A stretch of DNA of 64,000 nt from Halobellus inordinatus. Lineage in GTDB: Archaea > Halobacteriota > Halobacteria > Halobacteriales > Haloferacaceae. Where the stretch lies: contig NZ_JANHAV010000003.1 of assembly GCF_024464655.1 (NCBI RefSeq), forward strand, positions 1-64,000. The letters are read 5' to 3'. Positions 42,245 through 53,236 of this stretch are shown piece after piece (positions within the stretch are counted from its first letter, which is position 1; every line of letters starts with the position of its first letter). The translations under genes and the position numbers were made by a program. The notes beneath the pieces are model-generated. The model made no database searches. It had not been told where the DNA came from and was given only the letters and a program-made list of their open reading frames with translations.

Positions 42245-44089
42245 TCAGTAGCTCCGGATCTTCGGCTCGTAGCGCTTCTCTTCGCCTTCCAGCAGCACCG
42301 GCTTGTACCACAGCTCCGGCGATCCGTCGTTCCACGAGAGCATCGTGTGCTTCAGCCAGTTCTCGTCGTCGCGCTCCTGGTACTCCTTCCGCCAGTGCGC
42401 CCCGCGGAACTCGTCGCGAGCCAGTGCGCCGAGCGTGATGGCTTCGGCGATGTCGATGATGTTCCGCGTCTCGATGGTGTGCAGCAGGTCCGTGTTGAAC
42501 GTCCGCGATTGGTCCGCGACGCCGACGTTCTGGTACGCTTCGCGAGCGTCACGGATGTCGCGGAGCGCCTGCTTGAGGCCTTCCTCCTCTCGGAACACGT
42601 TGACGTGCTGGGTCATCGACTCCTGGACGTCCGAACGGATCTCCGAGTGGTTGCGGCCGTCGTTCTCCAAGAGCGCGTCGACGCGCCGGTCCGTGCGCTC
42701 GGTCGCGCGCGCGACGAGTTCGTCAGGCGAGAGATCAGAGCCCTCGGCGGCCGCACCGCCGTCCGCGACGGCGTCGGCGCCGGAGATACCAGCCTCGCCG
42801 GGAGCGACTGGCGTCTCGACGTCGCCGGACTCCCACTCACCGCGCTTGCCGGTGGTGATCTCGGCCTCTCCGAGATCGCGACCCGCGGCGTGGTGGCCCG
42901 CGCGCGCACCGAAGACGATGAGTTCCGGCAGCGCGTTCCCGCCCAGACGGTTCGAGCCGTGGACGGACGCACACGCACACTCGCCGGCGGCGTAGAGCCC
43001 CCCGATACACGTCTCTCCGTTCTCGTCGGTCTCGATGCCGCCCATCGCGTAGTGCTGGCCGGGCTTGACTGGCATCGGTTCTTCGAGCGCGTCGACGCCC
43101 TCGAAGTCCTTGGCCAAGTGGAGGATGTTCTCGAGGCGGTCGGTGATACGCTCCTCGCCGAGGTGGCGCATATCGAGGTGGACGTACTCGTCCTCGATGC
43201 CGCGCCCTTCGTTCACTTCGCTCAGTTCGGCGCGAGCGACGACGTCGCGTGAGGCGAGTTCGCCGTCGTTGCTGGCGTACCCGTACTCGAACATGAAGCG
43301 CTCGCCCTCGGAGTTGTAGAGGATGCCACCCTCGCCGCGGACACCCTCGGAGATGAGCACGCCCGTGCTGGGCAGGCTCGTCGGGTGGAACTGGATGAAC
43401 TCCATGTCCTCGATCGGGACGCCGGCGCGGTAGGCCATCGCGACGCCGTCGCCGGTGTTCGCGACGGCATTGGTGGTGTGATCGAACACCTGGCCGAGAC
43501 CGCCGGTCGCGAGGATGACGCCGTCGCGGGCGCGGAAGCCCTCGATGTTTCCGGACTGGATGTCGTAGCCGACGACGCCGTGGCAGGTCCGGTCTTCGGG
43601 GTCGTCCTCGTCGCTGACGGCCAGATCGAGGACGTACCACTCGTCGTAGACCTCGATGCCGCGCTTGACGAGCTGTTCGTACATCGTGTGCAGGAGCTGA
43701 TGTCCCGTCTCCGCACCGGCGTAGGTCGTCCGCGGGAACGAGAGGCCGCCGAACGGACGCTGGGAGACGCGGCCGTCCTCCTCTCGGGAGAAGGCCATCC
43801 CCCAGTGTTCGAGTTGGATGACCTCCTCGGGACTGTCCTGCGCAAGGGTCTCGATCGCCGGCGCGTCGCCGAGGTAGTCCGACCCCTTCATCGTGTCGTA
43901 GGCGTGGTCTTCCCAGGAGTCGGCCTCGCGGAGCGCCGCGTTGATGCCGCCCTCGGCGGCCCCGGTGTGGCTTCGAACCGGGTGCAGTTTCGAGACGATG
44001 GCCACGTCGGCCCCTTCTTCCTGTGCCGCGATGGCCGCGCGAAGGCCCGCGCCTCCCGCGCCCACCACGATGACGTCGTGTTCGTGCAT
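42245..44089 (-). CDS. sdhA: Succinate dehydrogenase flavoprotein subunit
   Basis: The 614-residue flavoprotein carries covalently bound FAD: VVGAGGAGLRAAIAAQEEG (dinucleotide fold), RSHTGAAEGGINAAL (flavin His), and the substrate-binding region PTSLPSTGVLISEGVRGEGG. The capping and C-terminal domains contain HRxGxN-like SNRLGGNALPELIVFG. It oxidises succinate to fumarate and passes electrons to SdhB. Last gene of the sdhCDBA unit. Confidence 0.97.
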   Translation of the reverse strand: MHEHDVIVVGAGGAGLRAAIAAQEEGADVAIVSKLHPVRSHTGAAEGGINAALREADSWEDHAYDTMKGSDYLGDAPAIETLAQDSPEEVIQLEHWGMAFSREEDGRVSQRPFGGLSFPRTTYAGAETGHQLLHTMYEQLVKRGIEVYDEWYVLDLAVSDEDDPEDRTCHGVVGYDIQSGNIEGFRARDGVILATGGLGQVFDHTTNAVANTGDGVAMAYRAGVPIEDMEFIQFHPTSLPSTGVLISEGVRGEGGILYNSEGERFMFEYGYASNDGELASRDVVARAELSEVNEGRGIEDEYVHLDMRHLGEERITDRLENILHLAKDFEGVDALEEPMPVKPGQHYAMGGIETDENGETCIGGLYAAGECACASVHGSNRLGGNALPELIVFGARAGHHAAGRDLGEAEITTGKRGEWESGDVETPVAPGEAGISGADAVADGGAAAEGSDLSPDELVARATERTDRRVDALLENDGRNHSEIRSDVQESMTQHVNVFREEEGLKQALRDIRDAREAYQNVGVADQSRTFNTDLLHTIETRNIIDIAEAITLGALARDEFRGAHWRKEYQERDDENWLKHTMLSWNDGSPELWYKPVLLEGEEKRYEPKIRSY

Positions 44090-44158
44090 AATGTATGATT
44101 GCTGAATTGCGTTGGTCTCGTGTTCGTCGCGTGAATTGCGGTTACGTACTCCTCAGGT

Positions 44159-45049
44159 CTACCAGAACTTGAGGTTGTTCTTGACCGCTTCGCGCTTGAG
44201 TTCCTGGATGTGCTCGGTCAGCGGGATGTCCTTCGGACAGACCTCCGTACAGGAGAACTGGGTCTGACACCGCCAGACGCCGTGTTCCTGTTCGAGGATT
44301 TCGAGCCGCTGTTGCTTCATATCCTCGCCCTCGCGCTCGTCCATCGTGAAGCGATACGCCTTGTTGAGCGCTGCCGGGCCGAGATACTGGTTGTCGCCCG
44401 CGGCAATGTTACACGAGGACATACACGCGCCACACCAGATACAGCGCGTGGACATCTTCACCTTCTCGCGGTTCTCACGCGTCTGATGCTGCTCTTCGAG
44501 TTCACCCTCCGGAAGCTCGTTCGTCTGGAAGTACGGCTCGACGGCCTCCATCTGGTCGTAAAAGTGCTCCATATCTACGACGAGGTCCTTGACGACCTCC
44601 GCGTGCGGGAGCGGTTCGATGCGGACCGGCTCTTCGAGGTCCGAGAGCTGTGTCTTACAGCAGAGGCGCTGGGAACCGTTGACGAACATCGCGTCCGAAC
44701 CACAGATCGCCTGTCGGCAGGAGTGCCGGAACGTGAGGCTCGAATCGTACGTGTCGCGCGCGTACATCAGCGCGTCGAGGACGGTCATCCCCTTGTGGTA
44801 GGGGACGTGGAAGTCGTCGAAGCGCGGCTCTTTCTTGCCTGCGATCTCGGGATCGTAGCGGAACACCTTCAGATGGTAGGTGTCCTCTTCGTCGAGCGCT
44901 TTCTCCGCCTCTTCGGCCTGGCGCTGGCGCTCTTTCTCTTCGGCGCGCTGTCTCTTCTTTTCCAGCCGGCGTTCCTGGGCTGCAGACGTCGGTTCGGCCT
45001 CGGCGGCGGACGATTCTTCTTCGACCTGTTCGGGAAGTTGCGTGCTCAT
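44159..45049 (-). CDS. sdhB: Succinate dehydrogenase iron-sulfur subunit
   Basis: The 296-residue protein has a charged Lys/Glu/Arg coiled N-terminal extension (about 1-55) and three cluster-binding regions: CRQAICGSDAMFVNGSQRLCC for [2Fe-2S], CIWCGACMSSCN, and CQTQFSCTEVCPKDI for the [4Fe-4S]/[3Fe-4S] clusters. It carries electrons from SdhA to the membrane anchors SdhC/SdhD. A 69-bp gap separates it from sdhA. Confidence 0.96.
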   Translation of the reverse strand: MSTQLPEQVEEESSAAEAEPTSAAQERRLEKKRQRAEEKERQRQAEEAEKALDEEDTYHLKVFRYDPEIAGKKEPRFDDFHVPYHKGMTVLDALMYARDTYDSSLTFRHSCRQAICGSDAMFVNGSQRLCCKTQLSDLEEPVRIEPLPHAEVVKDLVVDMEHFYDQMEAVEPYFQTNELPEGELEEQHQTRENREKVKMSTRCIWCGACMSSCNIAAGDNQYLGPAALNKAYRFTMDEREGEDMKQQRLEILEQEHGVWRCQTQFSCTEVCPKDIPLTEHIQELKREAVKNNLKFW

Positions 45050-45062
45050 TGTACTGTGACGC

Positions 45063-45434
45063 TTAGAGTGGGACGCCTCCGGCCCACGCGAGTGCGGTTC
45101 GGACGCCCTGCACGATCACGACGGCGCTCGCGACGCCGAGGACCAGTTTCGCGGCGGTCTTGCGGGTCCCGGTGAGGCCCTGATTGATGAGGGCGTTGTA
45201 GACGCCGTTGACGCCGTGGAACGTCGCCGTCAGGAGGAACAAGATCATAAGCGAGAAGTACGTCAGCTCCTGCATCCGACCCTGCGACATCGCGAAGGTG
45301 ACTTCGTCGGCGTGGTGGACGAAGTGCAGGAGGAAGAAGTGGAACGCGAGGACGACCACGAGGAACGCGGCCGTGATGCGCTGCCAGAGCCACCGGCGTC
45401 CACCGGCCTGGAACGAGGAGTAACGCTCGGCCAT
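45063..45434 (-). CDS. sdhD: Succinate dehydrogenase membrane anchor subunit SdhD
   Basis: The 123-residue protein has three membrane helices (about 20-40, 55-75 and 92-115) with histidines in FHFFLLHFVHHADEV and ATFHGVNGVYN positioned for quinone or haem binding. It starts at the ATG that overlaps the stop of sdhC, confirming the short form rather than the long frame upstream. With SdhC it anchors the complex to the membrane. Confidence 0.9.
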   Translation of the reverse strand: MAERYSSFQAGGRRWLWQRITAAFLVVVLAFHFFLLHFVHHADEVTFAMSQGRMQELTYFSLMILFLLTATFHGVNGVYNALINQGLTGTRKTAAKLVLGVASAVVIVQGVRTALAWAGGVPL

Positions 45435-45829
45435 CAGCCGAACACCCCCGCGAGGAACGTCGGAACGCTCGCGACGACGATCGCACCCGTCAGGAGCAGC
45501 GACGCGTAGAAGCTCTTGTCTTGAGATTCCAGGCCGACGCCGAGGTCGACGAACAGTAGCCGGAGACCGTTGAGGATGTGGAAGACGGCCACTGCGAGCA
45601 ATCCGACCTCCAGGATGCGGACGACCAGCAATCCCTCGAGCGTCTGGATCGTCGTCGTGTACGCATCCGGGCTCTGCAGTGCCGTCGAGAGGACGGCGAT
45701 GTGGGTAAATAGGTACCCCACGAGCACCCAACCCGTGAACTTGTGGAACACCCAGGCCCACATTCCCGCTGAGAACTCCCGCCAGCGGCCGAAGTCCTCG
45801 ATGAGGCCCCGATTGTAAGACTGACTCAT
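45434..45829 (-). CDS. sdhC: Succinate dehydrogenase cytochrome b subunit SdhC
   Basis: A 131-residue membrane protein with three helices. [22 protein letters not shown] has the haem-ligand histidine pattern, and [15 protein letters not shown] is family-typical. As first gene of the sdh operon it has the promoter: CTATAGAA on the plus strand (TTCTATAG on the minus strand) lies 28-35 nt before the ATG. Confidence 0.9.
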
Positions 45830-45953: not shown

Positions 45954-46970
45954 CTACCGCGAACCGGCCGACTGTTCCCGTTCGACGACCCGGCGAACGT
46001 CTTCGTCGAGTTCGACGAGGTGACAGAGCGGATTGCCGGGGTAGACCACGGGGTTCTCCAGCACGCCGACGAGCAGGCCGGTGAAGGGGGCTTCGACGGC
46101 GATGTTTTCACTCTTGAACGGATCGGTGAGCGTGCAGATGCGTTCGCCCTCGTGGACCAGCGAGCCGCGCTCGTAGTGCATATCGACGATGCCACCGGCG
46201 TCTGCGCGAATCCACGTCTTCTCGCTCGCGCTGTCGATGACGGTGCGCCAGCCGGGCCAGCGGACTGAGCCGGCCTCCCGGAGTTCGTACTCGGCGAAGA
46301 CGCTCTTGACGCCCGCGAGCGCGTCGTCGATGAGCCCGCGCTGGAATCGGTGGGCTTCGCCCATCTCGATCGTGACGGTCGGAATGCCGACCCGCGTCGC
46401 CTCCGTGCGGAGGACGCCGTCGCTCCCTTCGGAGTCGATGATCACGTTCGTGCCGAACGACCGGGCCAGCCGGGCGACGTCGTCGTCGGACATATCGGCC
46501 CTGACGTGGAGCATATTCGTCCGCCCGCGCGTGGACGTGTGGAAGTCGAGCCCGAAATCACAGGGGGCGACGAAGTTGTCGAAGATGCGCGCGGCCATCC
46601 GCTTCGCGCTCGTCGAGTCCTCGCGACCGGGGAACGATCGGTTCAGGTCGCGGTCGTAGATGGGGAGATAGCGCTGCTGGGCGAGGAACGCGGGGACGTT
46701 CAGCACCGGGAGACAGACGAGCGTGCCGGCGAGGTCCGAGAGGTCCCATTCGTGGGCGACCTCACGGACGACCTCGATGCCGTTGAGCTCGTCGCCGTGC
46801 GCGGCTGCAGACAGGAACACGGTCGGCCCATCCTGCTCGCCGTTGATGATGGTGACCGGAATGCGGACCGGGTCCCCGAGATACGTCTCGCTGATCCCGT
46901 AGCGGAGATTCTGCCGCTCTCCGGGTTCGACCTTCCCGCCGTTGTACGTGAAGGTCCCGTCGGTGCTCAT
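45954..46970 (-). CDS. Succinylglutamate desuccinylase / aspartoacylase family deacylase
   Basis: The 338-residue zinc carboxypeptidase-like enzyme has VFLSAAAHGDELNGIEVVREV (Zn ligands H and E), DLNRSFPGR (conserved Arg in the active site), and the second zinc ligand in FGLDFHTSTRGRTN, followed by TVTIEMGEAHRFQ (catalytic Glu). The last ~90 residues form the beta-barrel with EAPFTGLLVGVLENPVVYPGNPL. It cleaves an acyl or amino-acid amide bond; the divergent RimK-RimB gene suggests it reverses or trims that enzyme's products. A tandem repeat lies between the two. Confidence 0.85.
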   Translation of the reverse strand: MSTDGTFTYNGGKVEPGERQNLRYGISETYLGDPVRIPVTIINGEQDGPTVFLSAAAHGDELNGIEVVREVAHEWDLSDLAGTLVCLPVLNVPAFLAQQRYLPIYDRDLNRSFPGREDSTSAKRMAARIFDNFVAPCDFGLDFHTSTRGRTNMLHVRADMSDDDVARLARSFGTNVIIDSEGSDGVLRTEATRVGIPTVTIEMGEAHRFQRGLIDDALAGVKSVFAEYELREAGSVRWPGWRTVIDSASEKTWIRADAGGIVDMHYERGSLVHEGERICTLTDPFKSENIAVEAPFTGLLVGVLENPVVYPGNPLCHLVELDEDVRRVVEREQSAGSR

Positions 46971-47039
46971 ACTCGCCGTGGACGGGCCGGGGGGATAAAC
47001 GCTCGCACCGACTCCCGCGCTCGCGCTCGTGTCGACCCC

Positions 47040-47088
47040 CGAAGCGTGAAACGGTCACATCAGCGAAGTGTGAAACGGTCACACCAGC
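47040..47088. repeat. Two tandem 24-bp operator-like repeats between divergent genes
   Basis: Two copies of CGAAG-Y-GTGAAACGGTCACA-Y-CAGC stand head-to-tail with a 24-bp period (about two helical turns). Each contains an inner inverted repeat GTGA-AACGG-TCAC (TGTGA/TCACA in the second). They lie in the common upstream region of the deacylase and RimK-RimB genes, so one regulator could control both. Confidence 0.6.
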
Positions 47089-47143
47089 TGTTCTGAGTGC
47101 TGGATCGGCACCTCTTTGATTGTGTGGTTGAGTACGGAACAAT

Positions 47144-48502
47144 ATGTCTTCCGACGGAGAGCAAGTTCGCGTAGGCGTCCTCTCGTTACACAACAGCAAG
47201 GAGACGAAGGCTATTCTCAACGCAGTCGACGATCTCGGCCACGACGGGATCTGGTTACGCCGGGAGAACTCCGCGATCTCCATCGAAGACGGCGACGTCG
47301 CGATCGAACCGGAAGTCGACGTCGTTGCCAACCGTCTGCTGCTCTCGAACACCGAAGAGCCGGCCGAACTACTCGGGCTGGCGACGACGTTCGAGCGGAT
47401 CCGTCCGATGCTGAACGAGCCGGCGTCGGTCCTCACCGCCATCCACAAGTTCGCGACTGCGGCGACGCTCGCGAACTGGAACATCAAGGTCCCCGACGCC
47501 CTGCTCGCACTCTCGAACAACCGCCTGAACCAGGGTCGGGATCGGTTCGGCGAGGTCGGCGTCTACAAGTCCGCCATCGGAACGCACGGCGGCGGCACCT
47601 GGAAGGTCGATCTCACCGAACCCGTGAACCCCAAGGTCGGCAACCGCCAAGCGTTCCTGCAGGATCTCATCGACCGCGACGAGACGCGACACCGCGATCT
47701 CCGCGTCTACATCGTCGACGACGAGGTCGTCGGCGCGATGTACCGCTACGCGCCCGAAGGCGAGTGGCGGACGAACGTCGCACTCGGCGGCGACGTCGTC
47801 GACGCGACCGACGATATGCCGCAGGAAGCGCGGGAGACCGCGCTGTACGCCGCCGAAGTGATGGGACTGGATTACGTCGGCGTCGACCTCATCGAAGGTG
47901 ACGACGGCTGGTTCGTCCTCGAAGTCAACCCGACGGCCGGATTCAAAGGGCTGCACAAAGCGACCGGCCGCAGTCCCGCGCCGTACATCGCAAAGCTCGC
48001 GATCGAGCGTGTCGGCGGCGACGTCGACGACGAGCGCGTCGAGGAACTGTCGGCGACGCTCGACGACTCCCGGCCCGCGGGGATGCCACGCGTCAGTTCG
48101 GGCCCGGTCGGCGACCGCCCGACGATCGGCTACATCGAGGAGGTCGTCGTCTCCGGTACCAGCGGGTCGACGCAGGCGAAAGCCAAGTCCGACACCGGGG
48201 CGACGCGGACGAGCATCGACACCTCGCTGGCCGCCGAGATCGGTGCCGGGCCGATCAAGAGTATGACGCGCGTGAAGTCCGGTTCGCTGAAGTCGGGGAA
48301 GGCCCGCCCGGTCGTCGACCTCGTCATCGGGATCGGCGGCACCCAGCACACAGTCACTGCGAGCGTCGAGGACCGCTCGCACATGGACTACCCCCTGCTC
48401 CTCGGTCGCGACATCCTCGAACACTACCAGGTCGACGTCACGCGCCGGACCGACGAACCCGGCCGCGACGACGAGGAGCGCGAAGAGGAGTATCTGGAGT
48501 AG
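47144..48502 (+). CDS. RimK-type ATP-grasp ligase fused to RimB-like retropepsin-fold domain
   Basis: Residues 1-~295 are a RimK/MptN/CofF-type glutamate ligase: pre-ATP-grasp domain (VRVGVLSLHNSKETKAILNAV), KSAIGTHGGGTWKV, and the metal/ATP site LDYVGVDLIEGDDGWFVLEVNP. Residues ~315-440 resemble the 'ATP-dependent zinc protease' RimB (PF05618): YIEEVVVSG, KSDTGATRTSIDT with D350, and DYPLLLGRDIL. RimB-type domains look like retropepsins. RimK-like ligases add glutamates to ribosomal protein S6, F420 or tetrahydromethanopterin; the target here is unknown. Divergent from a deacylase gene. Confidence 0.9.
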   Translation: MSSDGEQVRVGVLSLHNSKETKAILNAVDDLGHDGIWLRRENSAISIEDGDVAIEPEVDVVANRLLLSNTEEPAELLGLATTFERIRPMLNEPASVLTAIHKFATAATLANWNIKVPDALLALSNNRLNQGRDRFGEVGVYKSAIGTHGGGTWKVDLTEPVNPKVGNRQAFLQDLIDRDETRHRDLRVYIVDDEVVGAMYRYAPEGEWRTNVALGGDVVDATDDMPQEARETALYAAEVMGLDYVGVDLIEGDDGWFVLEVNPTAGFKGLHKATGRSPAPYIAKLAIERVGGDVDDERVEELSATLDDSRPAGMPRVSSGPVGDRPTIGYIEEVVVSGTSGSTQAKAKSDTGATRTSIDTSLAAEIGAGPIKSMTRVKSGSLKSGKARPVVDLVIGIGGTQHTVTASVEDRSHMDYPLLLGRDILEHYQVDVTRRTDEPGRDDEEREEEYLE

Positions 48503-48593: not shown

Positions 48594-49904
48594 ATGTATA
48601 TGTCTCAACAGGTAGTCACCGAACTCGAGGTCGACGAGTACACGCTCGGGCTGGTCGGTCCCGATCAGGAGTGGGCCGGGACGGTCGCCGACGGCGGTAC
48701 GGTCCGGACGCACACGCCGCCGGCCTGCTGGGGACCGATGATCACACCGAAGTTCCGGGGCGGTCACGAGGTCACGAAGCCGATCGCCGTCGACGGTGCG
48801 GAGGTCGGCGACGCGATCGCGATTCACATCAAGGACATCGAAGTGACGAGTGTCGCCACGAGCACCGGGTCGATGGCGGAACGCGAGGACGCCTTCGGCG
48901 ACGACCCCTTCGTGGATCACCGCTGTCCGGAGTGCGGTGCCGAGTGGCCCGAGAGCGTCGTCGAGGGGACCGGCGAGGACGCCATCAGGTGTGCCGAGTG
49001 CGGTGCGAACGCCTCCTCGTTCGCGTTCGAGTACGGCATCACGACGGTCTTCGATGACGACTACGAGGTCGGCCTGACCGTCGACGAGGCGGCCGCCCAC
49101 GACCTCGCCGAGCGCGCCGCGGAGGCGAGTGCGCTGCCGGAGAACTCCAGACAACATCCGATTCTGCTGTACGAACCGTCGGAGATGCCGGGGACGCTCG
49201 GACATCTCCGGCCGTTCCTCGGCAACATCGGGACGACGCCGCCGGTCGAACTGCCGGACTCCCATAACGCCGGCGACTTCGGCCAGTTCCTCATCGGTGC
49301 CAGCCACGAGTGGGGCCTCGAAGACGAATCGGAACTGGACGCCCGAACGGACGGGCATATGGACATCAACGCGGTCCGCGAGGGCGCAGTCCTGATCTGT
49401 CCGGTGAAAGTCGACGGCGGCGGCATCTACGTCGGCGATATGCACGCCAATCAGGGCGACGGCGAACTCGCACTCCACACGACGGACGTCAGCGGCCACA
49501 CCGAGTTCGAGGTCGAGGTCATCAAAGGTCTCGACATCGGCGGACCGCTCCTTCTGCCCAACGAGGAGGACCTCCCGCACATCAGCAAACCGTACAGCGA
49601 ATCGGACATCGAGCGTGGGCGCGAACTCGGCGCGCAGTACGGCGTCGACGTCGAAACCGATATGGGGCCGATTCAGGTGATCGGATCCGGAGCGACGATC
49701 AACGACGCCACCGACAACGCCTTCGATCGCGCCGGCGACCTGCTGGGAATGAGCGAGGGCGAGGTCCGGACCCGCTGTACGTTCACCGGCGGCGTCGAAA
49801 TCGGTCGGCTCCCCGGCGTCGTCCAGCTGACGATGCTCGCGCCGATGGAGACGCTCGCGGACCGCGGACTCGACCACCTCGTGCGCGATCAGTACGGGTT
49901 GTGA
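48594..49904 (+). CDS. Acetamidase/formamidase family protein with zinc-ribbon insertion
   Basis: The 436-residue protein matches FmdA/AmdA: start VVTELEVDEYTLGLVGPDQEW, AVDGAEVGDAIAIHIKDIEV, then GGGIYVGDMHANQGDGELALHTTDVSGH with the metal-binding histidine/acid cluster, and VIGSGATINDATDNAF. At about 98-135, a CPECG ... CAECG pair forms a zinc-ribbon inserted in the fold, which ordinary formamidases lack as far as I can recall. It hydrolyses short amides (formamide/acetamide) to ammonia and acid. No partner genes (amide transporter) are adjacent; a stretch of about 80 bp follows before the next gene on the opposite strand. Confidence 0.88.
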   Translation: MYMSQQVVTELEVDEYTLGLVGPDQEWAGTVADGGTVRTHTPPACWGPMITPKFRGGHEVTKPIAVDGAEVGDAIAIHIKDIEVTSVATSTGSMAEREDAFGDDPFVDHRCPECGAEWPESVVEGTGEDAIRCAECGANASSFAFEYGITTVFDDDYEVGLTVDEAAAHDLAERAAEASALPENSRQHPILLYEPSEMPGTLGHLRPFLGNIGTTPPVELPDSHNAGDFGQFLIGASHEWGLEDESELDARTDGHMDINAVREGAVLICPVKVDGGGIYVGDMHANQGDGELALHTTDVSGHTEFEVEVIKGLDIGGPLLLPNEEDLPHISKPYSESDIERGRELGAQYGVDVETDMGPIQVIGSGATINDATDNAFDRAGDLLGMSEGEVRTRCTFTGGVEIGRLPGVVQLTMLAPMETLADRGLDHLVRDQYGL

Positions 49905-52051: not shown

Positions 52052-53236
52052 ATGGCGTTCGCTCGCCAGGGGAGCGAGGAGCGAACCGACCTCGGTGCGC
52101 TCCTCTCGCAGGTCCACCCGGTGTTTATGTTGCCGCCGCTCGCCGCGAGTGGGTTCGGTGCCGTCCTCGCCGGGCCGGCGACGCCCGCACCGCTCGTCCT
52201 CCACGCGATGGCCACGTTCTTCGCGGTCTACACGGCGCACGTCAAAGACGGCTACGTGGACTTCTACCGTCGCGGCGAGGACGACGACCACCCAATGAGC
52301 GAAGCGGGCTGTCGACGGGCGCTCGCCTGCGCGACGCTCGGGTTCGGCATCGTCACCGTGCTGCTCGGCACGCGCGTCGACGTCGTCGCCGCCGCCGTCA
52401 CGGTCCCGATGTGGCTGCTGGGATTCTTCCACGCCCCGCAGTTCGACACGAACCCGGTTACGACGACGCTCGGATATCCACTCGGCATCGCGCTCGCCAT
52501 CGTCGGCGGGCACTACGCCCAAGCAGGGCAGTTCGGCGCTGAACCGCTCGGATTCGCGCTCGTCTTTCTCACGACGCTCGCCGGCGTGAAGATCGTCGAC
52601 GACTCCACGGATTACCAGTACGACCGCTCCATCGGCAAGCGGACGGTCGCCGTCGCGCTCGGCCTCGAACGCGCGCGACGCTTGGCGTACGCGCTGCTGT
52701 ATCTCGGCTTCGTGTTCGTCGTCCTGTTCGCCGTCGGCGGGCCGTTCCCGGCGTCCGCACCGCTGGCTGCCGTCGCCTTCGGAATGGTCGCGCTCGTCGC
52801 GACGCGGGCAGACGCGACGGTGGCGACGATGCTGCTCGTCCGCGGCGCGTACGTCTTCCTCGCGCTCTTGGTCGTCGCCGTTTGGTACCGCCCGCTCGCG
52901 GGCGTACCGCTTCCGGATATCGGCCTGCTCGGCCCGTACACCTATCTCGCGACCGAAATCGCCTTCGGAACACTCGCGCTCGCCCTCCTGGTGTACGCCG
53001 ACGCCCTCCGCCGCGCCGCGGTGACGGTCCTGGCGCTCTATCCACTCGCGTACGTCTGGGACTGGTACACGCTCGAAGTCGGGGTGTTCGCGATTCCGCT
53101 GCGGACCGGCGTCGAACTCCTTGGTATTCCAGTCGAAGAACACCTGTTTATGCTCGTCGTCCCGGCGCTCGTGATCGGGATCCACGAGACAGTGAACGGC
53201 AGGGGGCGCACCGCCGCGGCCGACGAGCGGGAGTGA
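52052..53236 (+). CDS. UbiA-type prenyltransferase fused to a lycopene-cyclase-like domain
   Basis: The 394-residue membrane protein has about ten helices. Residues 1-~285 are a UbiA prenyltransferase with D66-x3-D70 (KDGYVDFYRRG) and a second acidic motif KIVDDSTDYQYDRSIGKRTVAVALG that bind Mg-prenyl diphosphate. Residues ~290-385 resemble CrtYcd-type lycopene cyclase domains: TYLATEIAFGTLALALLVYAD, YVWDWYTLEVGVFAIP and the characteristic PVEEHLFMLVVPALVIGIHE. Related UbiA enzymes (lycopene elongase) add C5 units to lycopene in bacterioruberin synthesis. The fusion suggests carotenoid chemistry at both ends. No other carotenoid gene is adjacent. Confidence 0.8.
   Translation: MAFARQGSEERTDLGALLSQVHPVFMLPPLAASGFGAVLAGPATPAPLVLHAMATFFAVYTAHVKDGYVDFYRRGEDDDHPMSEAGCRRALACATLGFGIVTVLLGTRVDVVAAAVTVPMWLLGFFHAPQFDTNPVTTTLGYPLGIALAIVGGHYAQAGQFGAEPLGFALVFLTTLAGVKIVDDSTDYQYDRSIGKRTVAVALGLERARRLAYALLYLGFVFVVLFAVGGPFPASAPLAAVAFGMVALVATRADATVATMLLVRGAYVFLALLVVAVWYRPLAGVPLPDIGLLGPYTYLATEIAFGTLALALLVYADALRRAAVTVLALYPLAYVWDWYTLEVGVFAIPLRTGVELLGIPVEEHLFMLVVPALVIGIHETVNGRGRTAAADERE

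Follow-up and report, generated by a model that had tools for sequence, protein, structure and literature searches.

A RimK-RimB fusion gene and a divergent AspA/AstE-type deacylase gene are conserved together in haloarchaea

Introduction

RimK glutamylates the C-terminal Glu of the ribosomal protein bS6 (PMC11957791, PMC10092738). In Pseudomonas, RimB strips glutamate residues from RpsF that has been polyglutamylated, and it stimulates the synthesis of free poly-alpha-glutamate by RimK (PMC11957791). A bacterial RimBK hybrid, with RimB first, has also been studied; its protease activity was kept, and the RpsF tested was not glutamylated (PMC11957791). Additionally, the RloA/B/C system of Pseudomonas aeruginosa is encoded by an operon with a retropepsin and an ATP-grasp gene, and has been assigned poly-Glu cleavage and a hypoosmotic role (PMC12239564).

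Here we analyzed a haloarchaeal locus from Halobellus inordinatus, within a window that we define as the whole 64,000-nucleotide stretch of DNA examined, in which a RimK-RimB fusion gene lies divergent to an AspA/AstE-type deacylase gene. Pseudomonas RimABK (PMC11957791, PMC7343187) likewise combines a RimK-type ligase with a RimB retropepsin carrying the conserved catalytic Asp motif, but it is encoded by separate genes, its substrate bS6/RpsF is not an archaeal ribosomal protein, and no AstE partner has been described. The RimBK hybrid of Desulfotalea, Flavobacteriales and Rhodobacterales resembles the haloarchaeal protein in holding RimB and RimK in one polypeptide. However, RimB is N-terminal in the hybrid and C-terminal (aa 327-431) in the haloarchaeal fusion, and neither an AstE partner nor a Glu tail was reported for the hybrid in a survey of bacterial accessions only (PMC11957791). 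The Rlo operon is similar to the locus described here and differs from it in having a secreted protease, a membrane transglutaminase-like RloB and no AstE. A literature search returned no paper on the haloarchaeal pair, nor on RimK together with succinylglutamate desuccinylase.

Results and Discussion

The fusion gene (47144..48502, + strand) encodes a 452-aa protein consisting of an N-terminal RimK-type ATP-grasp ligase, a C-terminal RimB-like retropepsin and a Glu-rich tail. This architecture had been proposed in a preliminary description of the window and was borne out by the open reading frame, Pfam, NCBIfam, AlphaFold, Foldseek and alignment. The RimK/ATP-grasp region (about aa 8-290; 47165..48013, +), placed by Pfam, alignment and Foldseek, includes a match to RimK PF08443 (aa 101-276, E 1e-24), and residues K142, D185, R187, N211, D248, E260 and N262 are invariant in an alignment of 30 sequences. 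The RimB-like domain (about aa 327-431; 48122..48436, +), placed by Pfam, alignment and AlphaFold, matches the RimB family (PF05618, 'Zn_protease') over aa 373-435 (E 5e-10; 39.8 bits against a Pfam cut-off of 27), with the match spanning just the C-terminal half of the profile. Alignment locates D350-T-G-A and G421-R-D here, so that the D-T/S-G catalytic motif of a retropepsin is present; the motif is degenerate in several fusion paralogues. The AlphaFold model, built from 24 homologues (mean pLDDT 70), contains an ATP-grasp body, of which the middle (aa 119-182) is poorly modelled, and a separate beta domain at aa 327-431. In Foldseek, the best PDB matches of this model were RimK (E 5e-16). 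The putative retropepsin half is assigned from Pfam, from sequence matches to the solved RimB-family proteins 9g58 and 9g59 and from the DTGA and GRD motifs, with no independent fold match.

The ligase is only distantly RimK-like. It scores 140.0 bits against rimK_fam (TIGR00768), just under the NCBIfam cut-off of 143.4, and the amino acid used could therefore differ; paralogues score 159.6 and 166.0 bits. The next-best NCBIfam matches are MptN (NF040720; 113.7 bits, cut-off 350) and LysX (95 bits, cut-off 276), which would fit a plain coenzyme ligase, CofF- or MptN-like and unrelated to the deacylase. These scores are nevertheless far under the cut-offs, as is that for CofF (TIGR04443; 51.5 bits, cut-off 300), an identity that the preliminary description had named as one that would refute its proposal. 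Moreover, the F420 ligase CofE is kept in 18 of 18 tested genomes without the fusion. The low CofF and MptN scores and the retention of CofE argue against a coenzyme ligase, and the strong co-occurrence and pairing with the deacylase (below) stand against it as well; we consider this explanation very improbable, and a plain CofF/F420 ligase was rejected. The fusion also scores low against the S6:glutamate ligase PRK10446 (62.6 bits, cut-off 331). Thus, by curated sequence cut-offs, the ligase is not CofF, MptN or S6 ligase.

The same genome carries a second full-length RimK-RimB fusion, 61% identical to the first (G000:C19:167746-169047) and located between ECF/cobalt-type transporter and Na/Ca exchanger genes. 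On a Salinirubellus plasmid, a RimK-RimB paralogue (L155, 2140-3480) is found near genes for cyclic 2,3-diphosphoglycerate synthase and universal stress proteins.

The second gene of the pair (45954..46970, - strand; 338 aa) was recognized as an AspA/AstE-type zinc deacylase in the preliminary description, and the reading frame, Pfam, alignment and Foldseek agree. The protein matches PF24827 AstE_AspA_cat above the Pfam cut-off (E 1e-48, 165 bits). It has the HxxE...H zinc site and catalytic Glu (H58, E61, H144 and E202), and these residues, together with R100, N110 and R111, are conserved in the alignment as far as methanogen and bacterial homologues. A Foldseek search with its AlphaFold model (18 homologues, mean pLDDT 77) returned DoeB, CphZ, AstE and AspA and, further down, the tubulin deglutamylase CCP5. 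While fold and catalytic residues are common to this protein, the AspA/AstE zinc deacylases, DoeB and CphZ, it scores under each of the curated cut-offs for DoeB (TIGR02994; 96.4 bits, cut-off 402.7), AstE and aspartoacylase (NCBIfam). Other haloarchaeal AstE-like plasmid genes sit in unrelated contexts, indicating that membership of the AstE family does not by itself mark this module. A Pseudomonas phage Cygsa01 gene annotated doeB (PP179332.1, 64103-65014) encodes a product with 22% identity to the window deacylase.

By sequence inspection, the 173-bp divergent intergenic region (46971..47143) contains two TATA-like sequences, one for each gene: GATAAACG (near 46994, as read on the - strand) would serve the deacylase, and CTCTTTGAT (near 47112) the fusion. 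Between them is a 24-bp tandem repeat in two copies (47040..47087, +), each with the dyad GTGA-N5-TCAC. Such operator-like repeats had been put forward as a mark of the system. We found two copies only in the window, one in one Halobellus relative, and degenerate copies or none elsewhere. Because the repeat is confined to the nearest relatives, it does not define the system, and a shared regulatory signature was rejected beyond them.

We surveyed 391 genomes of the haloarchaeal class for the fusion (E <= 1e-60) and for a close deacylase (best E below 1e-80), which were present in 348 and 353 genomes, respectively. Both genes occur in 347 genomes and neither in 37, leaving seven with a single gene (one fusion only, six deacylase only); the sole fusion-only genome is fragmented, with the fusion at a contig start. 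This co-occurrence has a Fisher p of 2e-44, ignoring phylogeny. The fusion and the deacylase are thus gained and lost together. In a list of 128 genomes with both positions, which favours the window's own family, the genes form a divergent adjacent pair in 110 (median gap about 140 bp), lie within 25 kb in 12 and are unlinked in six. The preliminary description had taken the divergent gene for a partner of the fusion, while allowing that a survey might find the two seldom adjacent; the opposite was found, with the genes neighbours in most listed haloarchaeal genomes, in support of a conserved functional partner. The same divergent layout is seen in families f2, f3, f6, f7 and f8; in f4, one or two genes intervene. 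One insertion in f4, a GNAT acyltransferase between the fusion and the deacylase, was rejected as a third component since it is limited to that family.

The sdh-deacylase-fusion block is largely syntenic, so the haloarchaeal counts are not independent, and the arrangement could in principle reflect inherited gene order without shared function. We regard this as highly unlikely: 37 genomes have lost both genes, the two stay paired on plasmids, and methanogens and bacteria encode the three activities in operons of their own.

The sdhCDBA genes for succinate dehydrogenase (42245..45829, -) are co-directional with the deacylase gene and lie 124 bp downstream of it. In about 50 of the examined loci, the deacylase is directly 5' of sdhCDBA in the same direction, and it remains with sdh where it is apart from the fusion (L067, L093, L095 and L096). 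RIMKLA/B make NAAG and beta-citrylglutamate. By analogy, the ligase could attach glutamate to an N-acyl amino acid or to a TCA acid (such as citrate or N-acetylaspartate) and the AstE enzyme could then remove the acyl group, a small-metabolite cycle that would tie the pair to succinate dehydrogenase. The conserved position beside sdhCDBA, the action of AspA/AstE/DoeB relatives on N-acyl amino acids and the f4 GNAT are all in keeping with such a cycle. However, it leaves the RimB protease domain unexplained, the GNAT is lineage-specific, and the stand-alone operons described below are not beside sdh. Additionally, in Halolamina and Halorarius the divergent pair is preserved on plasmids with no sdh beside it, and sdhC is still present in seven of eight pair-less genomes, with other genes upstream. 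The sdh link is therefore frequent and not required; a functional dependence on succinate dehydrogenase is weakened, and we judge the metabolite cycle unlikely.

Outside the haloarchaea, the three activities are encoded together by separate genes. A tight rimB-rimK-astE operon is present in 20 of the 24 AstE-bearing genomes of one methanogen family, in which adjacent genes overlap by up to 4 bp or lie up to 9 bp apart. In a bacterial sample made up of plasmids only, three-gene operons with RimB either first or last (RimB-RimK-AstE or RimK-AstE-RimB) were found in Vibrio europaeus, V. nigripulchritudo, Salinivibrio, Acaryochloris and Phaeobacter. These operons uphold the earlier remark that RimK, RimB and AstE recur together, a remark for which Iyer et al. 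2009 is reportedly the likely source. The window pair also encodes all three activities and so qualifies as a RimB-RimK-AstE module. The methanogen and bacterial deacylases are 32-36% identical to the window deacylase with all catalytic residues in common. Compared with the haloarchaeal pair, the operons of methanogens, Vibrionaceae, Acaryochloris and Phaeobacter form one transcription unit of separate genes, have channel gene neighbours and lack a Glu tail. Their RimK also differs in scoring above the curated S6-ligase cut-off, as found for the methanogen and Vibrio proteins tested. No bS6 is known from archaea, and the S6-ligase name is thus unlikely to fit the function of methanogen RimK. 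Small stand-alone RimB-family matches in other methanogens (L137-L144) had no adjacent rimK or astE, and a scan of the phylum centred on Oceanobacillus, run without a positive control, found nothing.

Several features of these operons were noted in passing. In both the methanogen and the bacterial operons, the C-terminus of RimK is a conserved basic stretch, KTRTRGKG or similar (L131-L136, L181-L191 and L196-L198). In some methanogen genomes (L192, L193 and L194) a second, distant rimK-like gene is directly beside rimK-astE, and in a Vibrio parahaemolyticus plasmid record (L153) the astE homologue lies unannotated in two overlapping frames.

The fusion architecture, intact catalytic residues, co-occurrence, divergent pairing and equivalent operons elsewhere are direct observations; from family membership we infer the substrate, the bond type and the ligase, protease and deacylase chemistry of the pair. 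With a probability of about 0.5, the pair is a haloarchaeal version of a RimB-RimK-AstE system with three parts, in which ligase, endopeptidase and zinc exo-hydrolase would act in a cycle on alpha-glutamyl chains. It is the biochemistry of RimB and RimK, together with the reverse-order fusion in bacteria, that leads us to read the pair as one glutamyl-chain cycle of making, cutting and finishing. The ATP-grasp half would use ATP to extend a Glu-ended acceptor through alpha-peptide bonds with an amino acid, likeliest L-glutamate; as in related ligases, the product would be a short poly-alpha-glutamate, which may be free or attached to the tail of a protein. The retropepsin half, judging from its DTG motif and from RimB biochemistry, would cut the glutamate chain as a dimer and may tune the ligase. 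The AstE-type zinc enzyme would then take the last residue or an N-acyl cap off the short products. In logic, this proposed cycle resembles cyanophycin turnover, which consists of an ATP-grasp polymerase, an endopeptidase and the AstE-like dipeptide hydrolase CphZ, the last of these being among the structural matches from Foldseek.

The pair is kept by about nine-tenths of the sampled haloarchaeal genomes. One system would bring the annotations 'S6 ligase', 'zinc protease' and 'succinylglutamate desuccinylase', now scattered, into a single pathway that can be tested, and suggests that many RimK genes labelled S6 ligase have another function, for example those of methanogens, where bS6 is unexpected. 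The family of the host includes the genetically tractable Haloferax, in which the product could be sought.

Our analysis adds two leads beyond the preliminary description: the Glu-ending tail of the fusion and, for the stand-alone operons, the repeated presence of Mg2+ and mechanosensitive channel genes nearby. The C-terminal tail (48449..48499, +) ends in DDEEREEEYLE and is predicted to be disordered (pLDDT <50). Among 62 fusion sequences, which are interrelated so that the counts are not independent, the last residue is Glu in 85%, as opposed to 14% of 1015 other proteins from the same loci. Similarly, 61% of the fusions end in Glu-Glu (1.6% of the others), and 74% have at least four Glu in the last ten residues (2.9% of the others). 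Tail sequence and length vary between lineages. In Haloferax paralogues the tail is absent and the retropepsin motif is degenerate too, whereas the paralogue at L156 has the tail although the motif is lost. Acidity is general among halophilic proteins, and the Glu tail could be one more case of it, although the other proteins of these loci are without such a tail. The best candidate for an acceptor at present is this tail of the fusion itself, to which glutamate would be added in cis.

Alternatively, the target could be a specific haloarchaeal protein that is reversibly glutamylated at its tail, with the fusion itself as one candidate. There is precedent in the action of RimK on the C-terminal Glu of bS6 (PMC11957791, PMC10092738), a terminal Glu is far commoner in the fusions than in other proteins, and the zinc enzyme is structurally related to CCP5. 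Protein-tail modification is nonetheless doubtful: no conserved partner substrate gene was found in the neighbourhood of the pair, most AstE relatives act on small molecules, and the stand-alone methanogen and bacterial RimB, RimK and AstE proteins had no Glu tail. A bolder version would give haloarchaea a near-universal reversible polyglutamylation, having writer and eraser in one polypeptide, an M14-related zinc finisher, its own tail as acceptor and a tie to intracellular cation balance. With its own tail as acceptor, the fusion would sense and set its own chain length, and TTLL/CCP tubulin glutamylation and cyanophycin turnover would be counterparts in logic. We hold this extended scheme to be quite improbable.

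Returning to the glutamyl-chain cycle, the genes within three positions of the stand-alone operons repeatedly include ion channels and transporters, as confirmed by Pfam for representatives; these are raw recurrences without background frequency, some of them from related genomes. MscS is found beside operons of Vibrio, Photobacterium and Salinivibrio and at two methanogen loci; CorA in Vibrio, Phaeobacter, Photobacterium and one methanogen; and MgtE in Vibrio, Salinivibrio and Photobacterium. CNNM and TrkA/TrkH are also among the neighbours. The haloarchaeal pair, for its part, adjoins sdh and not ion channels. Independent support for an ion theme comes from published work: cleavage of poly-Glu and protection under hypoosmotic stress have both been described for RloA proteases (PMC12239564), and RimK is commoner in brackish than in marine genomes (PMC10219603). 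Judging from the MscS, CorA, MgtE and related neighbours, and from the saline settings in which the named hosts live, the system probably has a role in ion or osmotic balance; for the methanogens, such a setting is conjecture. The same three activities in haloarchaea, marine bacteria and methanogens point to a shared, undescribed salt- or ion-related pathway.

Two further genes of the window were noted. Just downstream of the fusion is an FmdA/AmdA-type acetamidase/formamidase gene (48594-49904), with no clustered counterpart beside the pair at other loci. At 52052-53236, the window encodes a protein that has a UbiA prenyltransferase domain at its N-terminus and a lycopene-cyclase-like domain at its C-terminus.
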